The notes below the pieces were generated by a model. It did not search any database. It had not been told where the DNA came from and saw nothing but the letters and a program-made list of their open reading frames with translations. A stretch of DNA of 64,000 nucleotides from an uncultured Lachnospiraceae bacterium (GTDB taxonomy: Bacteria; Bacillota; Clostridia; Lachnospirales; Lachnospiraceae), in contig CALWPC010000027.1 of NCBI GenBank assembly GCA_944383325.1, forward strand, positions 62,001 to 126,000, read 5' to 3'. Numbering within the stretch: position 1 is the stretch's first letter; every line of letters starts with the position of its first letter. Below, piece after piece: positions 49,774 to 51,592 of the stretch. The translations under genes and the position numbers were made by a program.

Positions 49774-49802
49774 TTGAAATGATTTATCATATATAGTATA
49801 AT
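49774..49802 (+). promoter_or_regulatory. Promoter of the amidase-deacetylase gene
   Basis: TTGAAA (49774-49779) and an exact TATAAT (49797-49802) with a 17-bp spacer, 69 bp before the ATG. Confidence 0.8.
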
Positions 49803-49870: not shown

Positions 49871-51544
49871 ATGGCTGGTAAGAAATACAAAATGCCCCGG
49901 CGAAGTGAGTTTCGCTCTCAGAGCGCCTATGAGCGGGCAAGAGCAGCGCGTATCCGTCAGATCCGGAAAAAACGGCGGAGACTGCGCGCACTGGTAAAGT
50001 CTGCGATTATTGCGGTGATGGTTCTGGTAGCCGGCGCTTTGTGTATGGGTCTTTTTTTTGGTGTGACAAAATTGTTTTCCGCGCTTGGCTTCGGAGGCAA
50101 AAGCGTCCGGGAGTCTATTTTAGCAGAGCGCTATGAAGTGATGCCGGATCTTAGCACAGTCACGGTCAACGATTCGTCAGAGGAGGATACGCCTTTTCTT
50201 GATGTGACGGTATGTATTGATCCTGGGCACGGCGGAATGGATCCAGGGACGAGCAATACAGAAAAGACGCGGACGGAAAAAGAGGACGCATTGGATCTTG
50301 GGCTTTCTTTAAAAGAGCAGCTTGAAGACGCGGGAGTCACCGTTGTGATGACGCGCGACGACGATTCGTTCCCATCGCTCTCGGATCGGACGGAATTTGC
50401 CAATTCAAGCGGAGCGGATTATTACATTTCGATTCACCGCAATGCGGTGGAGAACTCGCCGGATTCACAGGGCGTTGAAATTTACACGAAAGTGGGCAGC
50501 GAGGAATCTCTGTTGCTCGGAAATAAAATTATGGATAAGCTCAAAGAGGTTGGTATCTCGTCTGACCGAGGCGTCAAACCGGGATCAAAGACGAGCGAGA
50601 CGTCCGATTTTCAGGTAAACCGCGACACTCAAATGCCGAGCTGTCTTCTGGAACTGGGATTTATGACGAATGCAGAGGATAATCAGTTGTATGATGAGCA
50701 CCTGGACGACTATGCCAAGGCGATTAAAGATGCGGTTGTTGCCATGGTCGTGCCGGAGGCGGACAGTCCGAGCGAACCTCTCGGCGCCCAGCTGACAAAT
50801 GCAAAGATTATGGATGTGGATACGCTTGATAATTCGGTCAAGGTCTGGGGACCGGGCGCTGAGGTCAATGAGAACAATGTGCCGACCGGAGTAGTCAGCG
50901 CGCAGGAAGAGTACGGCTCATTCCAGACGCTGTTTTATAAAGGAAATGCGGGTAAAGAAATTTTCCTGACATTTGATGTCGGCTATGAGGCGGGGTATAC
51001 AGAACAGCTTCTGGATACGCTGAAAAGTAACGACGTCCATGCGGTCTTTTTCATCACGCTTCCCTTTGCGCAGAGCAGTCCGGATCTTGTGCAGCGCATG
51101 ATTGACGAGGGACATATTGTGGGCAATCACAGCGCCACATATCCCGAGGAGGGCTTGACTGCGTTAAGCGTGGATGAGCAAAAAGAAGAGATTGAGAAAC
51201 TGCACGAATATATGCTGGAAACATTTAACTACCAGATGACGCTGTTTCGTTTTCCGAACGGACGGTTTAGCGAACAGTCGCTTGCGGTAGTCAATAATCT
51301 GAATTATGCGAGTGTGTTCTGGAGTTTTGCTTACGGCGATTATGATCAGAATCATCAGCCGGATGCGACCGAAGCGGTCAATGTTATGACCGATTGCCTG
51401 CACAGTGGGGCGATTTATCTGTTGTCTGCCAATTCTCAGACAAATGCCAATGTTCTGAATGAATTTATTGATCAGGTCAAGACCGACGGCTTTGTCTTTT
51501 CAAAACTCAGTGTGGCTTCGAATGAATCCGTTCAGGATGAATAA
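49871..51544 (+). CDS. N-acetylmuramoyl-L-alanine amidase fused to a NodB-like deacetylase domain
   Basis: 557 residues. A very basic cytoplasmic N-terminus (about 1-42) and one membrane anchor (43-66) place the rest outside. Amidase_3 domain at about 112-295: zinc ligands H120 (CIDPGHGG), a Glu in TEKED, H189 (YISIHRN) and catalytic E261 (LLELGF). NodB-like domain at about 350-550: D369 in LTFDVGYEAG, H420 in GNHS and FRFPNGRFSE. The usual second histidine of HxxxHP is tyrosine (Y424, HSATYP), so deacetylase activity is doubtful. It should cut peptide stems from peptidoglycan, with a sugar-binding or altered second domain. Confidence 0.93.
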   Translation: MAGKKYKMPRRSEFRSQSAYERARAARIRQIRKKRRRLRALVKSAIIAVMVLVAGALCMGLFFGVTKLFSALGFGGKSVRESILAERYEVMPDLSTVTVNDSSEEDTPFLDVTVCIDPGHGGMDPGTSNTEKTRTEKEDALDLGLSLKEQLEDAGVTVVMTRDDDSFPSLSDRTEFANSSGADYYISIHRNAVENSPDSQGVEIYTKVGSEESLLLGNKIMDKLKEVGISSDRGVKPGSKTSETSDFQVNRDTQMPSCLLELGFMTNAEDNQLYDEHLDDYAKAIKDAVVAMVVPEADSPSEPLGAQLTNAKIMDVDTLDNSVKVWGPGAEVNENNVPTGVVSAQEEYGSFQTLFYKGNAGKEIFLTFDVGYEAGYTEQLLDTLKSNDVHAVFFITLPFAQSSPDLVQRMIDEGHIVGNHSATYPEEGLTALSVDEQKEEIEKLHEYMLETFNYQMTLFRFPNGRFSEQSLAVVNNLNYASVFWSFAYGDYDQNHQPDATEAVNVMTDCLHSGAIYLLSANSQTNANVLNEFIDQVKTDGFVFSKLSVASNESVQDE

Positions 51545-51592
51545 AAAAAGGCTGCAAAATCATCTATGCGATGGTTTTGCAGTCCTTTTTTT
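51543..51592. terminator. Bidirectional terminator between the amidase gene and argG
   Basis: Arms AAAAAAAGG-CTGCAAAA-CATC and GATG-TTTTGCAG-CCTTTTTTT with two single-base mismatches and a 5-nt loop; T runs on both strands. Confidence 0.88.

Follow-up and report, generated by a model that had tools for sequence, protein, structure and literature searches.

The window, by which we mean the whole stretch of 64,000 nucleotides that was analysed (G000:C27:62001-126000), comes from a genome of 2.0 Mb in 53 contigs, and it contains a gene whose product has its closest named relatives among Lachnospiraceae records. The coordinates, reading frame and residues of this gene match those in the original prediction, which had described a membrane-anchored chain joining an Amidase_3 domain to a NodB-like domain; the open reading frame, its one hydrophobic stretch and matches to both Pfam families bear this description out. 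The gene and its main elements are as follows.

49774..49802, + strand: sigma-A-type promoter-like site TTGAAA-17-TATAAT, matching the consensus at 11/12 positions, 68 bases 5' of the ATG
49871..51544, + strand: fusion gene (557 aa; open reading frame and profile searches), a membrane-anchored Amidase_3 domain plus a PdaA-like NodB domain, a putative pseudo-deacetylase
50003..50059, + strand: core of the membrane helix, aa 45-63 (hydropathy; the AF2 model gives a helix at 17-71)
50210..50737, + strand: Amidase_3 domain, aa 114-289 (Pfam, 157 bits against a cut-off of 27; the model matches 4rn7 and CwlD 7rag)
50825..51529, + strand: PdaA-like NodB/CE4 domain, aa 319-553, with a degraded active site (TIGR02884; the model matches PdaA 1ny1)
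51550..51584, + strand: intrinsic-terminator-like hairpin of 15 pairs with a T-run, directly 3' of the stop codon (sequence)

The gene stands unaccompanied, with nifJ upstream in the opposite direction and argG convergent downstream (names assigned by reading the translations). Ahead of the hydrophobic stretch the N-terminus is basic, with 17 Lys or Arg among 41 residues. The amidase half had been predicted to be intact, and H120, E136, H189 and E261 are indeed all present and conserved; these correspond to the zinc ligands and catalytic glutamate of the family, and together with the Pfam score they place this half in Amidase_3. For CwlD, excerpts of PMC8496864 name H49/E65/E199 for the amidase site. 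The second half belongs to the CE4/NodB-homology group, since Polysacc_deac_1 matches aa 360-480 with 101 bits (cut-off 23.1). At the level of finer families, the best NCBIfam match of the NodB half is spore_pdaA (TIGR02884), whose 203.2 bits lie under the curated cut-off of 298, and that of the amidase half is spore_cwlD (TIGR02883), whose 99.0 bits lie under the cut-off of 221.55, so that neither half scores as a member of the corresponding sporulation family.

By alignment to the PdaA structure 1w17 we assigned the following equivalences in the NodB active site.

50975..50977, + strand: D369, the PdaA catalytic base D73, kept (alignment; invariant in 17/17 fusions)
50978..50980, + strand: V370, at the position of PdaA N74 (alignment, codon)
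51128..51130, + strand: H420, the first metal histidine (PdaA H124), kept (alignment)
51140..51142, + strand: Y424, codon TAT, replacing the second metal histidine (PdaA H128) within H420-S-A-T-Y424-P (alignment)
51425..51427, + strand: S519, codon TCT, replacing the general-acid histidine (PdaA H222) (alignment)

The tyrosine in place of the second histidine of HxxxHP had been recognized in the original prediction, which overlooked the loss at S519. The motif-3 arginine (R460) and the motif-4 aspartate (D490) are still present. Thus the base aspartate and motif-3 arginine of PdaA are retained, while the H124/H128 pair is incomplete and the H222 equivalent is missing, and the general-acid histidine that the SwsB cyclase retains (H282) is likewise replaced by S519. 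The change at V370 is a minor one, because PdaA itself already lacks the usual second aspartate of motif 1. According to excerpts of PMC12444981, PdaA lost its cyclase activity when H222 was mutated, as did SwsB when H282 was, and metal is required for deacetylation. Since the equivalents of both H128 and H222 are gone, neither PdaA reaction should run in the window protein, and we infer from these substitutions that deacetylase and cyclase activities are both probably absent.

We searched 397 genomes of the family, 103 of which gave a match at 1e-40 or better, and observed the fusion in at least 11 of the 397 (G000, which carries the window, and G182, G122, G106, G167, G389, G201, G263, G387, G336 and G171); this is a lower bound, with three candidates scored per genome. 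The genus of G182 contributes two further fusions (G421, G422), and named records contribute four (L042, L043, L044 and L074, in genomes G425, G426, G423 and G424, respectively), bringing the total to 17. This set leaves out L142, which is a NodB domain alone, and L065 and L068, whose arrangement is different; it includes L170 and also L171, which is truncated where its contig stops, so that most of its amidase is missing and only the E261 region of the site is covered. An open frame without an amidase match, L167, was rejected as a truncated fusion. In a wider draw from the order, only G000 and G122 were found (2/392) at E 1e-85, a cut at which fusions with a match split in two escape detection as well. 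All 17 fusions match both Pfam families, and the amidase site residues are kept in every one of the 16 that cover the whole site.

The NodB active site is more variable. Position 424 is histidine in 11 of the 17 fusions, tyrosine in G000 and G336, asparagine in G182, G421 and G422, and methionine in G122; position 420 is arginine in G122 and leucine in G336; and position 519 is serine in G000, G182, G421 and G422, an aligner gap beside a serine in G122, and histidine in the other 12, G336 included. The second metal histidine is therefore gone in all four clade relatives of the window protein (G122, G182, G421 and G422, from two other genera), and none of them keeps the H222 equivalent. Outside this clade, all five catalytic residues are kept in the 12 remaining fusions with the exception of G336, in which both metal histidines are lost. 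D369 and R460 are invariant across the 17 fusions, as is D490, even within the decayed clade.

In a quick tree of the NodB domains, G000, G122, G182, G421 and G422 group together (SH-aLRT 95), with G122 on a long branch (end branch 1.92), and G336 is placed among the intact fusions. The amidase tree, in which the tip L144 is the same G336 fusion and L065 is the fusion of different arrangement, recovers G000, G122, G182 and G421 as a group (four members, SH-aLRT 97). The trees indicate that the second histidine was lost twice independently, in the window clade and in G336. Reading neighbouring genes from their translations, we found no conserved operon around the fusion loci; the fusion gene adjoins nifJ in G182 and G421, and hisF and a uracil-DNA-glycosylase-like gene in G122, and these shared neighbours support orthology with the window gene. 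While the window clade adjoins nifJ or the hisF/ung-like genes, L044, L074, L158 and L165 (the G336 locus) share other neighbours.

The notion that orthologues share the lost histidine thus holds within the window protein's own clade, where five of five lack it, but not across the wider family, where HxxxHP stands in 11 of 17 fusions. A sequencing or assembly error in one genome has a negligible probability: although Y424 is a single base from histidine (TAT against CAT), S519 (TCT) differs from either histidine codon at two or more positions, and the same two histidines are missing in four other genomes. We rejected a single-strain variant or error on the grounds of this clade-wide loss. The suggestion that the domain uses another metal geometry is disfavoured as well, given that residue 424 varies within the clade (Y, N, N, N, M), that G122 has arginine at 420, and that the general acid has also been lost.

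Several other proteins with altered CE4 sites came to light. Two named Lachnospiraceae records (L065:5551-7134 and L068:4386-5987) contain another kind of Amidase_3-NodB fusion, whose motif 1 is TFDDGP (PgdA-class) and in which the first metal histidine is glutamine in L065 and histidine in L068. In Fictibacillus, stand-alone CE4 proteins of another subfamily (L103, L110, L115, L116 and L121) have both metal histidines replaced, the first by leucine and the second by tyrosine or phenylalanine, and keep the aspartate, the arginine and the general-acid histidine, which is the pattern of the G336 fusion; judging from the sequences, this is apparently convergence. In the genome of the window, L006:493-1974 (G000:C27, outside the window) encodes a 494 aa protein with a partial Polysacc_deac_1 match (27.9 bits, profile positions 42-95), perhaps another divergent CE4 protein, and L038:955-1707 (G000:C21) encodes an Amidase_3 domain with a SPOR domain.

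We compared the constraint on the two halves. Among the 11 intact fusions, 54 of 55 pairs show higher identity in the NodB domain than in the amidase (means 67 and 54%, respectively), whereas in the decayed clade this is so for only 2 of 10 pairs (rounded values). Within the genus of G182, NodB identity is 71%, like that of the amidase, while G122 shows the lowest values, 38-42% to the rest of its clade. Estimates of dN/dS by the Nei-Gojobori method are rough, as dS is 1.0-3.7 or saturated: for G182-G421 they are 0.10 (amidase) and 0.12 (NodB), for G182-G422 0.17 and 0.05, for NodB of G421-G422 0.11, and for NodB in pairs with G000 or G122 0.15-0.47 where computable. Selection on the decayed NodB domain therefore looks relaxed yet not absent.

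The AF2 model of the window protein (17 sequences; mean pLDDT 83.7, pTM 0.51) keeps both folds. It superposes on 4rn7 with a Z score of 29.5, on CwlD (7rag) with 27.1, and on PdaA (1ny1) with 28.1, the last at 35% identity and with a root mean square deviation of 2.3 over 231 residues. The linkers at 73-107 and 296-300 are of low confidence, so that the relative placement of the domains is unsupported. A model of the intact G106 fusion has the same general make-up.

These data bear on a doubtful but serious possibility, that decay is ongoing and that the NodB half is functionless, persisting as a stabiliser of the chain or as a remnant not yet deleted. The relaxed constraint relative to the intact fusions is in keeping with this, as is the further erosion of G122, which has arginine at 420, methionine at 424, RYFNG as its motif 3 and only 125 bits to TIGR02884; the divergence of its NodB domain is as expected for a domain being lost rather than for one maintained in a new role. 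The presence of an intact paralogue in every genome with a decayed fusion (below) also agrees with it. However, there is no stop within the matches of the five clade members (that of G422 ends at a contig end), the 71% NodB identity within the genus of G182 is like that of the amidase, and the rough dN/dS values are far below 1.

Turning to the genomes that carry the fusion, we searched 16 genomes for SpoIVA, which 14 of them have, and for Spo0A_C, which 13 have; G000 has both and G336 neither. This set includes G075, G066 and G381, which have no full fusion, and leaves out G421, G422, G425 and G426. CwlD, PdaA and SwsB profiles were searched in a second set of 16, all fusion genomes, without G422. 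A separate CwlD-like match of 205-224 bits is present in 14 of these (one over the cut-off; 209 bits on C51 in G000) and is missing from G336 and G426, which weakens the idea that the fusion replaces CwlD. PdaA matches of 285-299 bits occur in six of the 16 (G389, G426, G423, G167, G171 and G424; one over the cut-off), the fusion is the sole PdaA match above 185 bits in G106, G201, G387 and G425, and SwsB has no match over its cut-off in any of the 16. A stand-alone PdaA-like protein with the full D, H, H, R, H set is found in all six genomes whose fusion is decayed (L166 in G000, L174 in G182, L172 and L175 in G421, L173 in G422, L176 in G122 and L177 in G336; read by eye from translations except for L166). 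This is as expected if redundancy permits loss, but the association is not significant, with decay in 5 of 12 redundant and 0 of 4 sole-copy genomes (Fisher p = 0.24).

Sigma-A-type sites also precede the fusion gene in the clade relatives (12/12 consensus positions in G122, 10/12 in G182 and G421), whereas in 11 other fusions examined the best such sites match at 9-10 positions or there is none; from the promoter sequences there is a hint of expression in growing cells. The original prediction had linked the protein to cortex or division wall remodelling. Kinship of the two halves with PdaA and CwlD supports the cortex link, but separate CwlD-like and PdaA-like proteins are encoded and the promoter-like site is of sigma-A type, and therefore a role in remodelling the wall during growth is no less likely.

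From these observations, we hypothesize, with moderate confidence, that the window protein is an amidase with a retained pseudo-deacetylase, which would read glycan freed of its peptides and thereby place the amidase. A membrane-anchored N-acetylmuramoyl-L-alanine amidase would remove stem peptides from peptidoglycan outside the membrane. The PdaA-like domain in cis would no longer be an enzyme, as the catalytic metal would not be held normally and the general-acid histidine is absent, but it would still fold and, by ancestry, still recognise the peptide-free glycan made by the amidase, and so may position the amidase on its own product, much like a SPOR domain. The ancestor would have been a bifunctional amidase-plus-PdaA enzyme, and intact fusions would still pass the product of the first domain to the second; this second domain may have ceased to be needed in genomes with an additional, intact PdaA-like protein. 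A reader function is the simplest because glycan without peptide is what PdaA naturally recognises: in a reconstitution described in excerpts of PMC10116595, PdaA deacetylates and cyclises only those residues from which CwlD has already removed the peptide. By analogy, the SPOR proteins of E. coli bind to denuded strands (PMC12440217, in excerpt), and BA0330 and BA0331, CE4 proteins for which the excerpted text of PMC4505593 gives no detected activity, bind peptidoglycan and matter for the wall. The glycan-binding role originally proposed for the NodB half is thus plausible.

Counting against this hypothesis are the strong divergence of the NodB domain of G122, which is not what a maintained reader would be expected to show, the lack of a significant link between redundancy and decay, and the invariance of D369, R460 and D490 within the decayed clade, which could reflect a residual reaction. 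That the NodB half carries out an altered, metal-free reaction nevertheless appears improbable. SwsB, itself a degraded CE4 protein, cyclises without a transition metal, but the window clade lacks the H222 equivalent whose mutation abolished cyclase activity in PdaA and SwsB (both points from excerpts of PMC12444981). The G336 fusion (L165:4869-6590), which keeps this histidine and has lost both metal histidines, is the better cyclase candidate; its genome has no SpoIVA, no Spo0A_C and no CwlD-class match of at least 205 bits, making it a candidate metal-free cyclase outside sporulation.

It is also unlikely, though slightly less so, that the dead domain is an allosteric cofactor in cis, activating or restraining the amidase to which it is fused, in the way that GerS acts on CwlD. 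Precedents exist in that CwlD requires GerS to hold zinc (PMC8496864, in excerpt), and in that NlpD-AmiC of E. coli is inhibited by SddA, a deacetylase whose relative ATU2773 has no metal site and is suggested to be regulatory (PMC12440217, in excerpt); against this, the low-confidence linkers around the amidase and the pTM of 0.51 give no support for a packed interface.

More broadly, and tentatively, we propose that Lachnospiraceae possess a single-chain amidase-transamidase that would contain the whole CwlD-to-PdaA chemistry (peptide removal, deacetylation and lactam formation) and that is the sole PdaA-class protein found in some genomes that have spore genes (G106, G201 and G387 among them). 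Its second half would have been re-purposed at least twice: in the window clade it would read denuded glycan without catalysis and so target the amidase, while in G336, with its cyclase histidine and no metal histidines, it would perhaps be a metal-free cyclase. This proposal as a whole is rather unlikely to hold in every part. The one-chain architecture of CwlD-like and PdaA-like domains looks like a route to deacetylated or lactam muramic acid, and we found no description of such a chain in the open-licence literature, although CE4 enzymes with degraded sites are already known, as are Amidase_3 enzymes. Published work leaves unexplained how PdaA and SwsB can make an amide bond with no supply of energy (excerpts of PMC10116595 and PMC12444981). 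The naturally occurring fusions range from a complete set of active-site residues through partial sets to none, and tell apart the contributions of metal, base and general acid. The case bears on whether cells employ muramic-lactam chemistry beyond the spore cortex, and could reveal how a wall deacetylase turns into a non-enzymatic module beside an active amidase.

Among known systems, B. subtilis PdaA (CE4; TIGR02884, PDB 1ny1/1w17) is the closest to the NodB half in fold and sequence, with the equivalents of D73, H124 and the motif-3 arginine kept; the window protein differs in lacking H128 and H222, in scoring under the family cut-off and in being fused to an amidase. SwsB/YlxY (IPR014228; TIGR02873) is likewise a CE4 protein whose deacetylase site has degenerated, but it lost the base aspartate and kept H282, the H222 equivalent, and is a cyclase, whereas the window protein has the opposite pattern and scores 88 bits against a cut-off of 391.5. 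BA3943, which we presume to group with SwsB, is called a 'CE4 family pseudoenzyme' in the titles of its PDB entries. CwlD (TIGR02883; 7rag, with GerS) shares the Amidase_3 fold and the catalytic residues with the window protein, which reaches 99 of the 221.55 bits for this family in a genome with a much better separate candidate (C51, 209 bits). BA0330 and BA0331 of B. anthracis likewise have peptidoglycan-binding CE4 domains without detected deacetylase activity, but they are lipoproteins in which the Asp-His-His metal site is retained, and the excerpted text of PMC4505593 mentions no amidase fused to them. Finally, SPOR-domain amidases join an amidase to a module proposed to bind denuded glycan; in the window protein, where such binding is putative, the second module is a decayed CE4 domain rather than a SPOR domain.
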